From assembly GCA_001796335.1 (NCBI GenBank), contig MGMF01000004.1:1-64000 (forward strand): DNA of 64,000 nucleotides. The letters run 5' to 3'. Position numbers and translations under genes: made by a program. The notes below the pieces were generated by a model that did no database searches, had not been told where the DNA came from, and saw only the letters and a list, made by a program, of their open reading frames with translations. This DNA is from Chloroflexi bacterium GWB2_49_20 (lineage in GTDB: Bacteria > Chloroflexota > Anaerolineae > Anaerolineales > Villigracilaceae). How positions within the stretch are numbered: position 1 is the stretch's first letter; each line of letters opens with the position of its first letter. Positions 27,463 through 40,976 of this stretch are shown piece after piece.

Positions 27463-28230
27463 TTATCCCATCCTTCCGGTCAAATAGGCTTCGGTCAATT
27501 CCTGCTTTGGGCGGGTGAAGATCTGGTTCGTGGAAGCGAACTCCACCAGTTCCCCCAGCCAGAAAAGACCGGTCATCTCGGAGACGCGCGCCGCCTGCTG
27601 CATGTTGTGGGTCACGATCACGATGGTGTAGTTCTTCTTTAATTCCCCGATCAATTCTTCAATGTGCAGAGTGGCGATCGGGTCGAGCGCCGAGGTGGAT
27701 TCATCCATCAGGATGACTTCAGGTTGCACTGCCAGCACGCGTGCGATACACATACGCTGTTGCTGACCCAGCGAAAAGCCCATGGCATTGGCCTTGAGAT
27801 TGTCCTTGACTTCATCCCACAAGGCGGCCTGGCGCAGGCTGTGTTCCACGGTTTCTTCCAGATCGGCCTGACTTTTAAACGTCCCAAGCACGCGCGGTCC
27901 AAAGGCCACATTGTCAAACACCGATTGCGGAAATGGATTGGGCTTCTGAAAAACCATACCAACCCGCTGGCGCAGCGTGACCACATCCATATCCCCGGCA
28001 TGGATATCCTGCCCATTCAGCAGGATGTGTCCTTCCACGCGTGTGCCATGGATGGTGTCATTCATTCGGTTGAGACAGCGCAGGAAGGTACTCTTTCCGC
28101 AGCCGGAAGGCCCGATCAGTGCCGTCACCTGGCGCGGCAGCACCTGCAGGTTAATGCTGCTTAAAGCCTTTTTTAGCCCGTAATAAAAATTCAAGTCCTG
28201 GATATCAAAGATGGGATTGGTGGATTCCAT
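27463..28230 (-). CDS. pstB: Phosphate ABC transporter ATP-binding protein PstB
   Basis: 255 residues with Walker [11 protein letters not shown]-loop [21 protein letters not shown], signature [16 protein letters not shown], Walker [14 protein letters not shown] and H-switch VTHNMQQ, all typical of PstB. The signature reads SLGQ instead of SGGQ. It powers high-affinity phosphate import with PstC/PstA. It is transcribed away from the pstSCA operon that begins 60 bp to the right, so this canonical ATPase probably serves that operon from a divergent promoter. Confidence 0.92.
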
Positions 28231-28276
28231 GTTAGCAATTTTACACCATCCCGGAATATTTTTTCTTCATTTCGGC

Positions 28277-28282
28277 TATAAT
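28277..28282 (+). promoter_or_regulatory. -10 TATAAT, probable leaderless start for pstS
   Basis: TATAAT ends 7 bases before the ATG at 28290, placing the transcription start on or next to the start codon. There is no ribosome site. The short divergent gap (28231-28289) shows no clear copy of the GTTAAAC arrays found before the other pho genes. Confidence 0.45.
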
Positions 28283-28289
28283 TGCCCCC

Positions 28290-29162
28290 ATGAAACAACT
28301 GGCTGTCCTGTCACTTATCCTGGTTTTGATGATCTCCTGTGCAGCTCCCGGGACAGGCACCCCCTCCAACTCCCAACCCGCGGCAAGCATTCAAAATAAA
28401 GGCTCGGATACGATCGTAAACCTGGCATTGGCCTGGGCGGAGCGTTATCAACAGATCCATCCCGAAGTGCGCCTCTCGGTGACCGGTGGGGGTTCAGGAA
28501 CTGGCCTGGCTGCCCTGATAAATGGTACGGTGGATATCGCCAACGCTTCTCGACAGATCAAGCCCGAGGAAGTGACGGAAGCTCAGTCCAAAGGCATCGA
28601 TCCAGTGGAACATGTCATCGCCCGTGATGCCATTGCGGTCATCGTCAATCCGGAAAACCCGGTCAGCCAGCTAAGCCTCCAGCAGATCTCCGACATTTAC
28701 AGCGGCAAGATCACCAACTGGAAGGAGGTCGGTGGCCAGGACCGGCCGATCGTGCGCCTGTCACGCGAGACCAACTCAGGCACGCATGTCTATTTTCTCG
28801 AAACCGTCCTGCGCCTGGGGGATAAGGAAAATAAAACCCTGTTCTCAACCGACACGCTGCTGTTGCCATCCTCCGAGGGCATTATCAATGAAGTGCGCCA
28901 GAACCCGAATGCCATCGGTTATGATGGGCTGGGCTATGTCCCCAGGGATCTGAAAATGATCGCCATCGCCCGTCAGCCGGGGGAGGGCTACATCCTGCCT
29001 TCCATTGCCACGGTCAACGACAACAGCTATCCGATCGCGCGTGACCTGTATATGTATACTGCCGGGCAGCCCCAGGGCGCGGTGGCAGCCTACCTGGATT
29101 GGATATCATCGGACGAAGCCCAGGCCATTGTTGCCAAACTGGGCTTTGTGCCCGTAAAGTAG
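28290..29162 (+). CDS. pstS: Phosphate-binding lipoprotein PstS
   Basis: 290 residues. The lipobox LMISC gives a lipid-anchored Cys near residue 17. The mature part is a type II periplasmic-binding fold: GSDTIVNLALAWAERY, VTGGGSGTGLAALINGTVDI (the phosphate-binding loop), NASRQIKPEE, SGKITNWKEVGG and RETNSGTHVYFLE. It captures phosphate outside the membrane for the PstC/PstA channel. It heads the operon pstS-pstC-pstA-pstB-phoB-phoR. Confidence 0.92.
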   Translation: MKQLAVLSLILVLMISCAAPGTGTPSNSQPAASIQNKGSDTIVNLALAWAERYQQIHPEVRLSVTGGGSGTGLAALINGTVDIANASRQIKPEEVTEAQSKGIDPVEHVIARDAIAVIVNPENPVSQLSLQQISDIYSGKITNWKEVGGQDRPIVRLSRETNSGTHVYFLETVLRLGDKENKTLFSTDTLLLPSSEGIINEVRQNPNAIGYDGLGYVPRDLKMIAIARQPGEGYILPSIATVNDNSYPIARDLYMYTAGQPQGAVAAYLDWISSDEAQAIVAKLGFVPVK

Positions 29163-31727: not shown

Positions 31728-32444
31728 ATGTCTGAACTAATACTTGTCGTCGAAGACGAACCTTCTTTGCAGGAAACCCTGGTCTATAACCTGGAAAAGC
31801 TGGGTTACACTGTCGAAGCTGTCAGTGACGGGCGCCTTGCCATTGAAGCGGCCCGTGCTCACATCCCCGACTTGATCGTCCTCGATATCATGCTCCCAAG
31901 CCTGGACGGATTCGAAGTTTGCAAGATCCTGCGCAAGGAAATGAGCGTCCCCATCCTGATGCTGACGGCGCGCGATGATGAGATCGACCGCGTCGTTGGG
32001 CTGGAGGTCGGTGCGGATGATTACCTGACCAAGCCTTTCTCGATGCGCGAACTGATCGCCCGCGTTAAAGCCCAACTGCGCCGTACTCAAATCATCCGCG
32101 AGGAACTGGGAAAAATTAAAACTGCCGATACTGAAGAGCCACACAAAATTTTGACTTTCAAAAATCTGGCCGTTGACCTGACCCGCCGCGAGGTGAGATT
32201 GGATGGGCAGGCGCTCGCGCTCAAACCACAAGAGTATGACCTGCTGGTCTTCTTTGCTGAACACAAGGGACAGATGCTCTCACGTGAATTCATCCTCGAG
32301 CGCCTCTGGGGTTGGGAATACGTCGGAGACAGCCGTACAGTGGATGTTCACGTGCGCTGGCTGCGGCAAAGGATCGAGAAGGACGCCGCCAACCCGGAGC
32401 GCATTGTGACCGTACGCGGCGGGGGCTATCGTTTCGAAGGATGA
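31728..32444 (+). CDS. phoB: Phosphate regulon response regulator PhoB
   Basis: 238 residues from the ATG at 31728; an upstream in-frame start would lie inside the pstB-like gene. The receiver domain has acidic pocket E9/D10, phosphorylation site D53 ([13 protein letters not shown]) and [12 protein letters not shown]. The C-terminal OmpR-type winged helix has [20 protein letters not shown] and [16 protein letters not shown]. It binds tandem 11-bp repeats in known cases and is probably the regulator acting on the arrays at 33767 and 34984. Its stop overlaps the kinase start (ATGA). Confidence 0.88.
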
Positions 32445-33682
32445 ATACCTTTCTACTGGTTAGTTTCATTATTGCTTTGCTTGCGCTCGGCTGGTTTGCC
32501 TGGCGTTATTTCCGCCTGCGGCACGGTATGGAGGCCTTCGCCCGCACCATCCGTCGCACGACCCAGGAAGGGTCTCCTGCCGCATCTCTGCCTGAGGATG
32601 AGGCCGGGTTGGAGGAACTGTCCAACGCGGTCAGGGCGCTGGCCGAATCTCTTGAGTTGCGTTCGCTGGAGGTGGATGCCGAGCGTGCCAAACTGGCCGC
32701 TGTGCTTGACCGCATGACGGATGGCGTGCTTATTGCCGATTCCGATGGATATGTTACTTTCCTGAACCCGGCTGCTGAGCGTTTGTTCGATGCGCCCGGC
32801 GCAATTGGCCGCACGGTGGCTGAGATCGTGCGACAGCACCAGTTGGTGGAGGCCTGGCGCCGCAGTTGTGAAACCGGAGAAGCACAGGAGGAATCGGTCG
32901 AATTGCCCGCCATGCGCCAGTTCCTGCAATTGGTTATCCTGCCCGACCAGCAGACCGGCAGCTCGCTCCTGCTGGCGCAAGACCTGACGCGCGTCCGGCG
33001 GCTGGAAAAAGTGCGGCGTGATTTTATCTCGAACGTCTCTCACGAACTGCGTACTCCGCTGGCCTCGCTCAAAGCCCTGACCGAAACCCTGCGTGACGGT
33101 GCGCTGGACGATCCAAAAGCTGCTCCGCGTTTCCTGGGACGCATCGAAACCGAGGTGGATGCACTGACCCAGATGACGCAGGAACTGCTTGACCTGACGC
33201 GCATCGAATCCGGCCAGGTGCAGCTGGATTTGAAATCTGCCGCCCCCGGAAAACTGCTGGCCTCGGCCGCGGATCGCATGCGGGCGCAGGCTGAACGCAC
33301 CGGATTGATACTGACGGTTGAATCCGCTATGGACCTGCCCGAGGTGCATGCGGATGCGGCGCGGCTGGAACAGGTGTTGGTCAACCTCGTCCATAATGCC
33401 CTCAAATTCACCGCTCCGGGTGGCAAGGTGATTCTATCCGCAGGGGCGAAGAGCGGGTTTGTCCGTTTTGCAGTGAGAGATACCGGCGTTGGCATTCCGG
33501 AGGACGAATTGGAACGCGTCTTTGAGCGTTTCTACAAAGCCGACCGGGCACGTTCTAGCGGTGGCACCGGGCTGGGGCTTTCGATCGCCCGTCACATCGT
33601 CGAGGCGCACGGGGGCAGGATCTGGGTAGAGAGCGTCGAAGGACGGGGCAGCACGTTTTATTTTACGATACCAGTTTTCTAA
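32441..33682 (+). CDS. phoR: Phosphate regulon sensor histidine kinase PhoR
   Basis: 413 residues from the ATG overlapping the phoB stop. There is one N-terminal membrane segment ([18 protein letters not shown]) and no sizeable extracellular domain. A PAS-like domain at about 85-185 ([20 protein letters not shown]) follows, then HisKA with the phospho-acceptor H-box [16 protein letters not shown] and an HATPase domain ([39 protein letters not shown]). As in PhoR, phosphate status is presumably sensed through Pst and PhoU rather than directly. Confidence 0.85.
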
Positions 33683-33766: not shown

Positions 33767-33810
33767 TTTAACCAAACGTTAAACGGATGTTCTTCAGTCC
33801 TTAAACTCCA
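33767..33810 (+). promoter_or_regulatory. Proposed PhoB operator: four 11-bp direct repeats
   Basis: Units start at 33767, 33778, 33789 and 33800: TTTAACCAAAC, GTTAAACGGAT, GTTCTTCAGTC and CTTAAACTCCA. Each has a 7-base core related to GTTAAAC and a 4-base spacer, the architecture of Pho boxes in other phyla. A -10-like TAAGAT begins at 33816. The array matches the one at 34984-35027 almost unit for unit. PhoB as the binder is inferred from the phoB gene 1.3 kb upstream. Confidence 0.75.
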
Positions 33811-33848
33811 TGCGGTAAGATAAATACATGATTAAGGAGATTAAACAA

Positions 33849-33971
33849 ATGGAAGTAATATTTTTGATCGTTATGACGATCGCCATGTTCATGGTCTTTG
33901 GTGTGGATACCGCCCAGAAACGGCGCAAATTCCTGGAACAGCAGTCACAAGGAAAGAAGAACGCACAATGA
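33849..33971 (+). CDS. 40-residue single-TM membrane protein, coupled to surE
   Basis: The ATG at 33849 follows AAGGAG (33834-33839) at good spacing. The protein begins MEVIFLIVMTIAMFMVFGVD, one hydrophobic helix, followed by a basic tail (TAQKRRKFLEQQSQGKKNAQ). Its stop overlaps the surE start (ATGA at 33968-33971). It lies directly under the Pho-box array, so it should be phosphate-starvation-induced. Small single-TM proteins often modulate transporters or kinases; no specific role can be assigned. Confidence 0.65.
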   Translation: MEVIFLIVMTIAMFMVFGVDTAQKRRKFLEQQSQGKKNAQ

Positions 33972-34828
33972 GCCCGCACATTTTGGTCACGAATGACGAC
34001 GGTGTACTGGCGCCCGGCCTGCTGGCACTGGCACAGGAAATGCGCAAGCTGGGCAAGGTCAGCATCCTGGCTCCCGACCGCAACTGGTCGGGCGGTGGAC
34101 ATGTCAAAACCCTCGACCGTGCCCTGCGAGTGCGCGAAGTGCGCCTGAGTGATGGCACCCAGGCCTTTGCCAGTGACGGTGCGCCTTCCGATTGCGTCTC
34201 GCTGGCTGCCCTGGGCTACATCAAGGAGCCGATCAACCTGGTCGTTTCTGGCATCAACGTGGGCGCCAATTTGGGACACGATGTAACTTATTCCGGCACA
34301 GTCACTGCCGCGATGGAAGCCGTCATTGCCGGTGTGCCTGGCGTGGCAGTGTCACTGGAGGTGCCTGAAAATCACGTCGGCGAGATTGAATTCGGCCCGG
34401 CCGCCCGCGCCGCCCGCCGAGTGGTGGAACAGGTGATCGCAAACGGCCTGCCACCGGAAATCCTGCTCAACGTCAACGTCCCGTTTTTGAGTGACGAGCA
34501 GATGCGCGGCTTTCGACTGACGCGGCAGGGATTGCGCGTCTATCACAATCGCCTGGATGAACGCCTGGACCCGCGCGGCCGACCCTACTACTGGATCGGC
34601 GGCGACGCCCCAACCGGCGTCTCGGAGCGAGGCAGTGACATCGGGGCGCTGTCAGAAGGTTATGTCTCGGTTACCCCACTTCACCTGGATTTGACTGCCT
34701 ATCACATGCTGCCTGATTTGAATACGTGGGGATTGGAAGAACAAGCGCTGGAGCTGCCGAATATGAACCCGGCCCTGCTACTGGACTCCTCTGCCGGGCA
34801 GTTGCTGAAGGCGGAGGTAGCGGACTGA
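33968..34828 (+). CDS. surE: 5'/3'-nucleotidase SurE
   Basis: 286 residues. The metal-binding N-terminus ILVTNDDGVLAPGL, the conserved Ser/Asn region APDRNWSGGGH, and VVSGINVGANLGHDVTYSGTVTAAMEA are SurE hallmarks. It is a divalent-metal-dependent phosphatase acting on nucleoside monophosphates. Its position behind the Pho-box array and the 40-residue gene suggests it releases phosphate from nucleotides during starvation. The ATG overlaps the upstream stop. Confidence 0.93.
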   Translation: MSPHILVTNDDGVLAPGLLALAQEMRKLGKVSILAPDRNWSGGGHVKTLDRALRVREVRLSDGTQAFASDGAPSDCVSLAALGYIKEPINLVVSGINVGANLGHDVTYSGTVTAAMEAVIAGVPGVAVSLEVPENHVGEIEFGPAARAARRVVEQVIANGLPPEILLNVNVPFLSDEQMRGFRLTRQGLRVYHNRLDERLDPRGRPYYWIGGDAPTGVSERGSDIGALSEGYVSVTPLHLDLTAYHMLPDLNTWGLEEQALELPNMNPALLLDSSAGQLLKAEVAD

Positions 34829-34855
34829 AGGTAAATCCACCTTGCTGATGATGCA

Positions 34856-34886
34856 ACGACGCAACCGCCTGGTGCGCCGTTTTTTG
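34856..34886 (+). terminator. Rho-independent terminator after surE
   Basis: ACGACGCA (34856-34863) pairs with TGCGCCGT (34873-34880) with one mismatch, followed directly by six T residues. Confidence 0.65.
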
Positions 34887-34983
34887 TTTTATTGCTTCAT
34901 GCATAAATAATTGAGCTTTTTGTCGTCATATTTCTCACATAAGCTAGAAATGCAGTTCCGTTATTTACGCAGTATTCTGTAAC

Positions 34984-35027
34984 TTTAACAAAACGTTAAA
35001 CATATGTTCTCTTGACGTTAAACATGG
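34984..35027 (+). promoter_or_regulatory. Proposed PhoB operator: four 11-bp direct repeats before the second pstS
   Basis: Units start at 34984, 34995, 35006 and 35017: TTTAACAAAAC, GTTAAACATAT, GTTCTCTTGAC and GTTAAACATGG. A -10-like TGATAA begins at 35030, about as far from the array as in the first copy. The ribosome site AAAAGGAGAA precedes the ATG at 35068. The match in unit number, order and register to 33767-33810 argues for one shared regulator. Confidence 0.8.
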
Positions 35028-35067
35028 CTTGATAAACTCTTCTTAACTAAAAAAGGAGAAAAGAAAA

Positions 35068-36261
35068 ATGCGTAAAAATTTATTTGTTTCCATGTTCGTT
35101 CTGCTCATCGCCGTGCTGGTGCTCAGCGCCTGCGCTCCCTCCGCCTCTGCCACAGTGGTACCAACTTCCACAGATGTCCCGGTTGCCGGTATGCAACAAC
35201 CTACTGTTGCTGCAACCGTTGAACCCCTCCCGGCTGGATCGGTTCAGATCAACGGTGCGGGTGCCACCTTCCCCCTGCCCGTTTACACGGAGTGGGCTTA
35301 TGCCTATCAATATGTCGATCCATCCGTTGTCATCAATTACCAGGGTATCGGCTCCGGTGGCGGTAAAAAAGGTATCCTGGATGGCACAATTGATTTCGCC
35401 GGTTCCGACTCGCTTTTGAAGGACGAGGAATACACTGCTGGTGCTGACTTGCAAATGTACCCGATGCTGGCTGGTGCGGTGGTCAATGTGTACAACATCC
35501 AGTGGGCCAAAGAAATCCCGACGGGTACCACCCTGCCCGCCCTTGTCCTTGACCGCCAGACCCTGGTGGACATCTACAATGCTAAGGTCACCAAATGGAA
35601 TGATGCCAGGATCGTTGCCTTGAACCCCGGATTGGCCGAATATCTGCCCAACGCTCCCATCACAGTTGTGCATCGCTCAGATGGCTCCGGCACGACCGAG
35701 ATCTTCACCAATGCTCTGACCTCCTTCAGCCCGGACTGGGTTGCCGGTGGCGCTTCATCTGTCGAATGGCCGGTGGATAAGGCCGGAAACGGCGTTGGCG
35801 GTAAAGGCAACCAGGGCGTGGCTGCATCCGTCATCAACACCCCCAATTCCATTGGTTATGTCGAACTTTCCTTTGCCATCTCCAACCAGATGCCCTTTGC
35901 CAGCATGGTCAACAAGGCCGGCAAGACCGTAATTGCCAGTGCTGACTCTCTGGCCTCCGCCATGAACGATTTTGCCACAGCCTTTGATGCCAAACTGACC
36001 GTCACCATCGTGGACGCTTCAGGCGATGGCTCCTGGCCTGTTTCCGGCTATACCTATCTCATCCTGCATACCCAGAATATGACCGATTTCGTCAAAGCTC
36101 AGAAACTGCTGGAGTACATCCAATGGAGCCTGACCGACCCGTCCGCTGCCAAACGCGCCGGAGATCTTGGCTACTCGGTCCTGCCTGGCGCTGTCCGTGA
36201 CTTGGTGCTTGCCAAGCTCGGCCAAGTGACTGTCAATGGTCAGCCTGTTTTGACCAAATAA
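35068..36261 (+). CDS. pstS: Phosphate-binding lipoprotein PstS (second copy)
   Basis: 397 residues, about 100 longer than the first copy. The lipobox VLVLSAC anchors the Cys near residue 21. A Thr/Val/Pro linker follows, then the binding fold: INGAGATFPLPVYTEWAYAY, YQGIGSGGGKKGILDGTIDFAG, RSDGSGTTEIFTNALTSFSP (phosphate-binding SGTT loop) and VINTPNSIGYVEL. This AGATFP type is the classical PstS found with PhoU. Expression is presumably driven by the adjacent Pho-box array. Confidence 0.93.
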   Translation: MRKNLFVSMFVLLIAVLVLSACAPSASATVVPTSTDVPVAGMQQPTVAATVEPLPAGSVQINGAGATFPLPVYTEWAYAYQYVDPSVVINYQGIGSGGGKKGILDGTIDFAGSDSLLKDEEYTAGADLQMYPMLAGAVVNVYNIQWAKEIPTGTTLPALVLDRQTLVDIYNAKVTKWNDARIVALNPGLAEYLPNAPITVVHRSDGSGTTEIFTNALTSFSPDWVAGGASSVEWPVDKAGNGVGGKGNQGVAASVINTPNSIGYVELSFAISNQMPFASMVNKAGKTVIASADSLASAMNDFATAFDAKLTVTIVDASGDGSWPVSGYTYLILHTQNMTDFVKAQKLLEYIQWSLTDPSAAKRAGDLGYSVLPGAVRDLVLAKLGQVTVNGQPVLTK

Positions 36262-40278: not shown

Positions 40279-40341
40279 TTTCCCTTCTTTATTGAGAGGA
40301 TACAAAAGATCAACTTAATACTCCCTGGAAATCATTACAGG

Positions 40342-40374
40342 GTTTTTAACCAATATTTACATGTTCTTTACATC
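40342..40374 (+). promoter_or_regulatory. Three 11-bp direct repeats with TTTA core, possible OmpR/PhoB-type site
   Basis: Units GTTTTTAACCA, ATATTTACATG and TTCTTTACATC start at 40342, 40353 and 40364; TTTA(A/C) is at the same offset in each. The 11-bp spacing is that of OmpR/PhoB-family sites, but the core differs from the GTTAAAC arrays. A -10-like TATCAT begins at 40382. Confidence 0.4.
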
Positions 40375-40439
40375 CAAAATGTATCATCATCAACAGCAAG
40401 GGCTTCCTTGCAAATTCAAATCATTCAAGGAGATTGATG

Positions 40440-40976
40440 ATGAAAAAAACAGTAACAGCACTTCTAATTGTGGCGGTAGTAGCCATTGCATTAAGTACCG
40501 CCGGTCTGGCTTATGCCCAGGCACCCACACCTCAGGCTCCAGTAACCGGAAGCGGTTACGGCTATGGAATGAATGGTAACGCCAGGATGCATAGTGGCAT
40601 AATGGGCCAGAATGTAGTATCTGGAACCCAGGATGGCGTGCTTCACGATGTGATGATCGCGGCCTTCGCTGAGCAGCTCGGAATTTCGGTGGAAGATCTG
40701 AATGCCCGGCTGGATGCAGGTGAGACTGTGGCAGATGTGGCTTTTTCCAAAGGTCTGACGGTTGATGAATTCCGGACCTTGATGACAGACGCCCGCTCAC
40801 AGGCTATTGACCAGGCCCTCCTGGATGGCACTTTGACCCAAGAACAGGCTGATCGGATGAATCAGCGTGGCGGCGGTCAGATGATGGGAGCCGGAGCCGG
40901 GCGAGGAGCCCGTGGCGCAGGTCAGGGTCAATTCTCAAACCCGGGTTGCCCGTACTATGACGAGGTTCAACCTTAA
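40440..40976 (+). CDS. Small exported Gly/Met-rich protein
   Basis: 178 residues from ATG 40440; ATG 40437 is equally possible, with AAGGAG at 40427-40432. The Sec signal peptide ends near AQAPTP (cleavage after LAYAQA). The mature protein has a Gly/Tyr/Met-rich region (GSGYGYGMNGNARMHSG), then a helical part (ISVEDLNARLDAGETVADVA, then LTQEQADRM), and a Gly/Arg/Met tail with one Cys. The helical part resembles DUF2680-like exported proteins. Metal or envelope-stress roles have been suggested for similar proteins but cannot be shown here. Expression may use the 11-bp repeats just upstream. Confidence 0.7.
   Translation: MKKTVTALLIVAVVAIALSTAGLAYAQAPTPQAPVTGSGYGYGMNGNARMHSGIMGQNVVSGTQDGVLHDVMIAAFAEQLGISVEDLNARLDAGETVADVAFSKGLTVDEFRTLMTDARSQAIDQALLDGTLTQEQADRMNQRGGGQMMGAGAGRGARGAGQGQFSNPGCPYYDEVQP

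Follow-up and report, generated by a model that had tools for sequence, protein, structure and literature searches.

The window, that is, the whole stretch of 64,000 nucleotides analysed here, contains two intergenic segments built on the same repeated word. One of them precedes a gene for a 40-residue protein and surE, the other precedes a gene for a phosphate-binding protein. The question raised by this locus is whether these arrays, hereafter A1 and A2, are sites of phosphate control, by which regulator they would be bound, and whether their motif can be used to read other genomes. On comparison of sequences, it is very probable that A1 and A2 are Pho boxes, i.e. tandem sites for the phosphorylated form of the PhoB-like regulator encoded at 31728. 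The features concerned are the following.

31728..32444, plus strand: OmpR/PhoB-type response regulator, presumed binder of the arrays (PF00072 and PF00486)
32441..33682, plus strand: PhoR/PnpS-type histidine kinase (PF00512, PF02518, PAS)
33767..33810, plus strand: array A1, putative Pho box of four 11-bp units, upstream of the 40-aa ORF and surE
33816..33821, plus strand: TAAGAT, predicted -10 of the promoter at A1, at the offset of the -10 emerging in 57 class sites
33834..33839, plus strand: AAGGAG, likely ribosome-binding site of the 40-aa ORF (from the sequence)
33849..33971, plus strand: 40-aa single-span protein of a conserved family without a name (span judged by eye)
33968..34828, plus strand: surE, 5'/3'-nucleotidase (PF01975, TIGR00087), with an ATGA overlap with the 40-aa ORF
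34984..35027, plus strand: array A2, putative Pho box of four 11-bp units, upstream of pstS1
35033..35038, plus strand: TAAACT, predicted -10 of the promoter at A2, with an extending TG at 35030-35031 (TGaTAAACT)
35068..36261, plus strand: pstS1, phosphate-binding protein (TIGR00975 above cut-off; PF12849)
40333..40376, plus strand: weak third candidate array, not claimed (score 11.0 with the outside-trained matrix), ahead of the ORF at 40434-40976

Two arrays in a phosphate island

Both arrays are embedded in a phosphate island. Between 28290 and 33682, pstS2, pstC, pstA, pstB, phoB and phoR follow one another. Then come A1, the 40-aa ORF overlapping surE (33849-34828), A2 and pstS1, and downstream of pstS1 an arsC/LMWPc-like gene, pstC, pstA, pstB and phoU. 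The assignments of PstS, PhoB, PhoR, SurE, ArsC/LMWPc and PhoU were checked with Pfam and NCBIfam; the names pstC, pstA and pstB come from reading the translations by eye. Judged by SurE, the nearest named relatives are Anaerolineae and other Chloroflexota assemblies.

The sequence-only reading had described two matching arrays of four 11-bp units with a GTTCT-like third unit and a -10-like element at a similar distance, and direct reading of the sequence confirms each of these points. The units are, in order, TTTAACCAAAC, GTTAAACGGAT, GTTCTTCAGTC and CTTAAACTCCA in A1, and TTTAACAAAAC, GTTAAACATAT, GTTCTCTTGAC and GTTAAACATGG in A2. The shared plan consists of four 11-bp direct repeats with the core (G/C/T)TTAAC(A/C) and a degenerate third unit, which reads GTTCTTC in one array and GTTCTCT in the other. 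Tandem direct repeats with an 11-bp period are what is expected of a general Pho box of the PhoB/PhoP family. The -10 elements start at an identical offset, 49 bases past the array start, and the gap from the 7-mer of unit 4 to TAnnnT is 9 bp in A1 and A2, in keeping with the spacing of about 10 bp between a Pho box and its -10.

A1 and A2 are identical at 32 of 44 positions, and A2 is the best match of A1 when both strands of the window are searched. When 200 random 44-mers were each compared with the rest of the plus strand, their best matches had a median of 25, a 99th percentile of 31 and a maximum of 33, so that the identity of the two arrays is high but not unique and, taken alone, is the weaker evidence. 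A matrix made from the eight units gives the arrays 32.3 and 31.5 and the next non-overlapping place in the window 16.5; the peak scores in 20 Markov sequences, each of 64 kb, were 9.5-18.3. Because this matrix is fitted to the same eight units that it scores, a second one was trained outside the window's genome, on 56 pho-linked sites all taken from other genomes. It scores A2 at 49.0, A1 at 41.2 and the next separate place of the window, at 40333, at 11.0. This last site is followed by TATCAT; the ORF downstream of it, after phoU, has no name. With at most 3 mismatches allowed, a search of the complete 3.37-Mb genome for the four-unit pattern finds A1 and A2 at 1 mismatch and four further matches at 3 mismatches, one of which is A2 on the other strand; the reversed pattern has 9 matches at the same tolerance. 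Only A1 and A2 stand out as arrays in this genome.

Arrays in the class and the phylum

The array pattern TTWACN5KTTAAMCN4YTTN9TTAA was run with at most 1 mismatch on 298 genomes of the class. At least one match was found in 77 of them (20 with the reversed pattern), leaving 221/298 without a match at this tolerance. After merging of overlapping matches, 99 distinct sites are obtained, two of them the window's own. An ORF of at least 90 aa starts within 350 bp downstream of 95 of the 99 sites, as compared with 13 of 22 control sites. When this next ORF, taken as the longest one downstream, was compared by phmmer with the window proteins, it was PstS-type in 48 cases, SurE in 6, PstB in 3 and PhoB-like in 1. 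Thus, 58 of the 99 sites precede an ORF of these four kinds, versus 0/22 for the reversed pattern. Two of the 58 are weak according to Pfam (L275, with no domain, and one of L126, with only ABC_tran), and A2 is missing among them because its ORF is cut at the end of the stretch. Absence of enrichment before phosphate genes is what the sequence-only reading had named as counting against its motif; the scan found enrichment instead, and the idea of a PhoB motif usable in other genomes is upheld.

The remaining 37 of the 95 ORFs match no window protein, and many have no evident phosphate role. With Pfam (E 1e-5), they comprise PHO4 (1), Ppx-GppA (1), PHP-domain (6), DUF3419 (2), solute-binding (4), DegV (2), NPCBM/CARDB (2) and DUF5666 (2) proteins, single cases of NfeD, FHA, Big_5, acyltransferase, PepSY, radical SAM and ferredoxin, and 10 ORFs without a domain; Alk_phosphatase, PhoD and GDPD were absent from the 37 at the same threshold. 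The arrays ahead of DUF3419 genes (L128:1837-3027 and L132:154-1377) come from two genomes, both in a single family of the class. DUF3419 being presumably BtaA-like and involved in betaine-lipid synthesis, it is possible that phosphate-sparing lipids are under Pho control there.

In the phylum sample, the occurrence of the pattern is patchy, with 48 of 301 genomes matching and 253/301 without a match at this stringency. Among 47 sites fetched from this sample, some of which fall within the class and some of which are duplicates, 25 precede PstS, SurE, PstB or PhoB. Of 35 sites fetched from beyond the class, 14 stand ahead of a PstS- or PhoB-like ORF and 21 do not. A closely conserved array is also seen ahead of short ORFs in one genus outside the class (L318, L319, L320, L327, L328); it has a good third unit, CTTAAAG or CTTAAAA, and the ORF of L320 has an MGS-like domain.

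The array also emerges when no pattern is supplied. Gibbs sampling of 33 pstS1 upstream regions, chosen by similarity of the PstS1 protein, recovered it unaided at 18.8 bits, versus 12.0-12.3 in four shuffles (10 restarts for the regions and 4 for the shuffles). It is not present in every one of the 33 regions. Around surE, 80 loci were considered. The array is found in 45 of the 47 loci whose SurE is at least 73% identical and in 5 of the 33 below that value, two of the more distant loci sitting at 72.8 and 73.0%. Scanning these loci (624 kb, two strands) with the matrix gave 135 hits above 15, of which 6 equal a training site; 127 of the 135 lie outside ORFs of at least 150 aa, where only 21% of the bases fall. 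The column-reversed matrix gave 0 hits on the same loci, and five unit-permuted matrices, a poor control, gave 44, 22, 2, 0 and 1. The locus of the nearest surE relative (93%; L009:3839-4004) has neither A1 nor the beginning of the 40-aa ORF, through either a deletion or an assembly fault; an array does precede its pstS.

Finally, 57 class sites show conserved positions past unit 4, which the search pattern had left free: G47 in 40, T49 in 44, A50 in 46 and T54 in 44. A predicted -10 element, often extended (TGnTAnnnT), is thus found at a fixed distance from the arrays across the class. The enrichment over the control, the recovery without a pattern and this fixed -10 together argue for a Pho box and for a usable motif.

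If so, the following scheme may be proposed. When phosphate is low, PhoR would phosphorylate PhoB, and phosphorylated PhoB would occupy the units in head-to-tail order, where a -35 element would otherwise lie, and recruit RNA polymerase. A1 would then switch on the 40-aa membrane protein together with surE, and A2 would switch on pstS1 and the downstream pst genes.

Two other explanations have to be weighed. The arrays might be repeats due to chance or to base composition, the intergenic DNA being A+T-rich. TTAA-like words are indeed common, the two-unit core at 3 mismatches occurs at 172 places in the genome and at 606 in the reversed control, fragments of the motif this short being uninformative, and one or more of the random 44-mers found a partner as good as 33/44. 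Chance does not account for the class-wide tie to pst and surE with 0/22 in the reversed control, for an array recovered without a pattern, or for a fixed -10; at the level of sequence statistics (matrix, class scan, Gibbs sampling and surE loci) it is refuted, and we regard it as extremely improbable. The arrays might also be genuine sites of the phosphate regulon whose binder is another OmpR-family regulator, WalR/YycF-, MtrA- or RpaB-like, rather than the 31728 protein. Binding to tandem repeats is common among OmpR-family regulators, and the 31728 protein reaches 224 bits against the TIGR02154 PhoB model, under its cut-off of 296, while the YycF, MtrA, RpaB and CseB models outscore PhoB, all of them under their own cut-offs. 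Its best solved relative is RegX3 (2oqr), and the kinase encoded at 32441 scores 326 bits against NF046044 PnpS, under a cut-off of 400.

What argues against a different binder is the position of the genes. The regulator and its PnpS/PhoR-like kinase lie within the pst island directly before A1, and PhoB-PhoR or PhoR stands ahead of the arrays in several relatives (for example L010, L055, L050 and L053). Outside the class, one array (L342) precedes the PhoB-like gene itself. Another OmpR-family regulator is hence judged improbable, and binding by the 31728 protein is retained as the preferred reading. The pair adjoining the arrays is PhoB/PhoR-like, with the right domains and context, although it misses the NCBIfam PhoB and PnpS cut-offs.

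No array was seen ahead of the pstS at 28290, and Gibbs sampling of 24 upstream regions orthologous to it gave an output that was read as coding sequence of a divergent gene. The genes from 28290, the second pstS, to phoR, which have no recognisable array, are probably not under this switch. At 27463-28290 of the window, pstS2 on the plus strand diverges from a pstB-like gene on the minus strand; the roughly 60 bp separating them contain no Pho array, and the upstream regions of orthologues in the order resemble this divergent stretch. PF00245 and PF09423 searches returned no PhoA or PhoD in this genome, and the two GDPD loci (PF03009, glpQ-like) have no array, their best scores by direction being -4.5/11.2 and 0.7/1.1; the value 11.2 is probably a place within the GDPD gene matched by the four-unit pattern. 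Sites had been expected before pst, phoA and glpQ. They are found before pst in other genomes; phoA and glpQ, and phoD as well, are rejected as targets in this genome.

A family of tiny proteins behind the arrays

Relatives of the 40-aa ORF occur beside surE in many genomes, with 55 distinct sequences of 33-40 aa. Their consensus is METI.....F.S...VF.VDA.RKRREFL.KQ..A, in which D20, K24 and R25 are invariant among 30 aligned members. Differences by codon position, 0.30, 0.12 and 0.50 in 17 members, have the pattern of a translated gene under selection. Pfam and NCBIfam searches with 30 members gave nothing above cut-off (best E 0.008 and 0.035, respectively). In the 301 phylum genomes, these small proteins are found in 15 of the 18 from the same taxonomic family as the window and in none of the 283 others. 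Examples are L031:2936-3043 and L047:2971-3075, and there are sometimes two copies per locus.

An array scoring at least 17 lies upstream of 36 of the 55 small ORFs, 35 of them at 17-41 bp before the start; the line of 17 was set after viewing the list, in which scores drop from 17.0 to 5.3 at that point. Four of the 36 (L146, L143, L093, L306) are in loci found via the array pattern or pstS. Estimated from the 135 hits in 624 kb on two strands, about 1 in 55 would be expected by chance. In a background of random segments, the 95th percentile is 3.2 and the 99th 42.3; only 1/55 passes the latter, because this background contains true arrays. In a set of 19 small ORFs, 10 score above 15, one more has a visible array at 10.1, and L362 is mis-placed. 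The distance from array to start is exactly 17 in 12 small ORFs. With such spacing, transcription would be expected to begin at the start codon itself, and these messages are probably leaderless.

A common arrangement among relatives runs array, small ORF, array, PHP-domain gene, surE, array, pstS, pstC. The PHP-domain protein has 235-250 aa (L031:3184-3894, L050:3193-3945, L242:520-1242 and others) and often an array of its own; its identity was checked in L031 and L050 and was also met among the ORFs of the class scan. In relatives, its gene separates the small ORF from surE. The window has no such gene at that point, and its island resembles a shortened version of this arrangement that lacks the PHP gene.

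It is tempting, though doubtful, to imagine that Pho boxes here reveal a family of METI..SVIFLSMVVVFSVDATRKRREFLKK-like membrane proteins, 33-40 aa long and with a single span, induced by phosphate starvation, in part from leaderless messages, and perhaps acting as feedback regulators of PhoR/Pst. The small ORF is often encoded beside PhoR. MgrB, the feedback regulator of PhoQ, would be the model for an action of the small protein on a PhoR/Pst sensor. E. coli YoaI, which is PhoB-regulated and has one membrane span, resembles the 40-aa protein in size, in this single span and in a phosphate-linked promoter; its gene neighbourhood is unlike that of the 40-aa ORF. YoaI is presented as a small membrane protein mediating cross-talk among signalling pathways (PMC13037399). 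As regards surE and the Pho regulon, the open-licence PMC literature returned nothing evidently related.

Relation to known Pho boxes

Among open-licence PMC full texts, no paper evidently dealing with a Pho box in Anaerolineae or Chloroflexota was found. The Pho box is an ordinary, already known kind of control site, here well supported by sequence in this group; the unexpected part, worth following, is the array ahead of a tiny membrane protein family without a name. With a tested motif, the phosphate regulon can be traced in the genomes of a group represented here mostly by metagenome assemblies, and the motif points to unforeseen targets: surE, the PHP-domain protein, DUF3419 genes in two genomes and the tiny membrane protein family.

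To place the motif among known boxes, 16 pstS1 arrays were picked at 19/28 or more matches to the GTTAACC core, a choice that favours this core. In them, unit 1 is (C/T/G)TTAAC(A/C), unit 2 GTTAAC(A/C), unit 3 mainly TT and unit 4 GTTAA; core position 1 is C, T or G in unit 1 and mostly G in units 2 and 4, with TTAAC kept. Core position 4 is A in 16/16 of units 2, 14/16 of units 1 and 13/16 of units 4, counts which the choice of GTTAACC-picked arrays also favours. The pattern-free consensus from Gibbs sampling, gTTAACA, likewise has A at this position, as do the window arrays except in unit 3, unlike the actinobacterial box with its C. At 20/28 or more core matches, 33 pstS1 upstream regions count 13 for GTTAACC, 9 for CTTAACC, 3 for GTTCACC and 0 for CTGTCAT; the shuffles reach this level in 0/99 cases for each of the four cores.

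The Bacillus PhoP box consists of TTAACA-type repeats spaced by about 11 bp, and the TTAACA core is common to it and to the present arrays. In E. coli, the PhoB box is made of CTGTCAT units (PMC4415409, PMC1906773), direct repeats of 11 nt lying about 10 bp upstream of the -10, to be compared with 9 bp here. The core differs: the pstS1 regions average 13.85/28 matches to CTGTCAT and the shuffles 13.33, and 0/33 regions reach 20. The Streptomyces PhoP box is a direct repeat of 11-nt GTTCACC units (PMC4415409), with 7 conserved and 4 variable bases and a consensus one letter off, its position 4 being C where the arrays have A. The sequence-only reading had placed the motif close to this GTTCACC box. 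That it is one letter away holds true, but GTTCACC is set aside as the closest relative since TTAACC fits better (CTTAACC 9 versus GTTCACC 3 of 33 regions) and the consensus has A.

The cyanobacterial SphR (PhoB) box is a set of CTTAACCT tandem repeats with 3-bp linkers (N3) (PMC1906773). It shares with the arrays the 11-bp period, the direct repeats, the TTAACC core and the position before pst genes, and the core GTTAACC-N4 found here is one letter from its CTTAACC. In a table of the same source, TTTAACCAaac is printed for Synechocystis sphX, and unit 1 of A1 (TTTAACCAAAC) equals this first unit letter for letter (PMC1906773). With such near-identical sites in print for cyanobacteria (PMC1906773), the qualification of the motif as phylum-specific has to be abandoned. 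Nevertheless, differences exist. The SphR sites are given with two to three units (PMC1906773), whereas each array comprises four, the third of them degenerate. In the 16 GTTAACC-picked pstS1 arrays, units 2 and 4 mostly begin with G, unlike the SphR box. The present arrays are further set apart from the SphR sites by a fixed -10 and by targets that include surE, genes for PHP-domain proteins and a tiny membrane protein.
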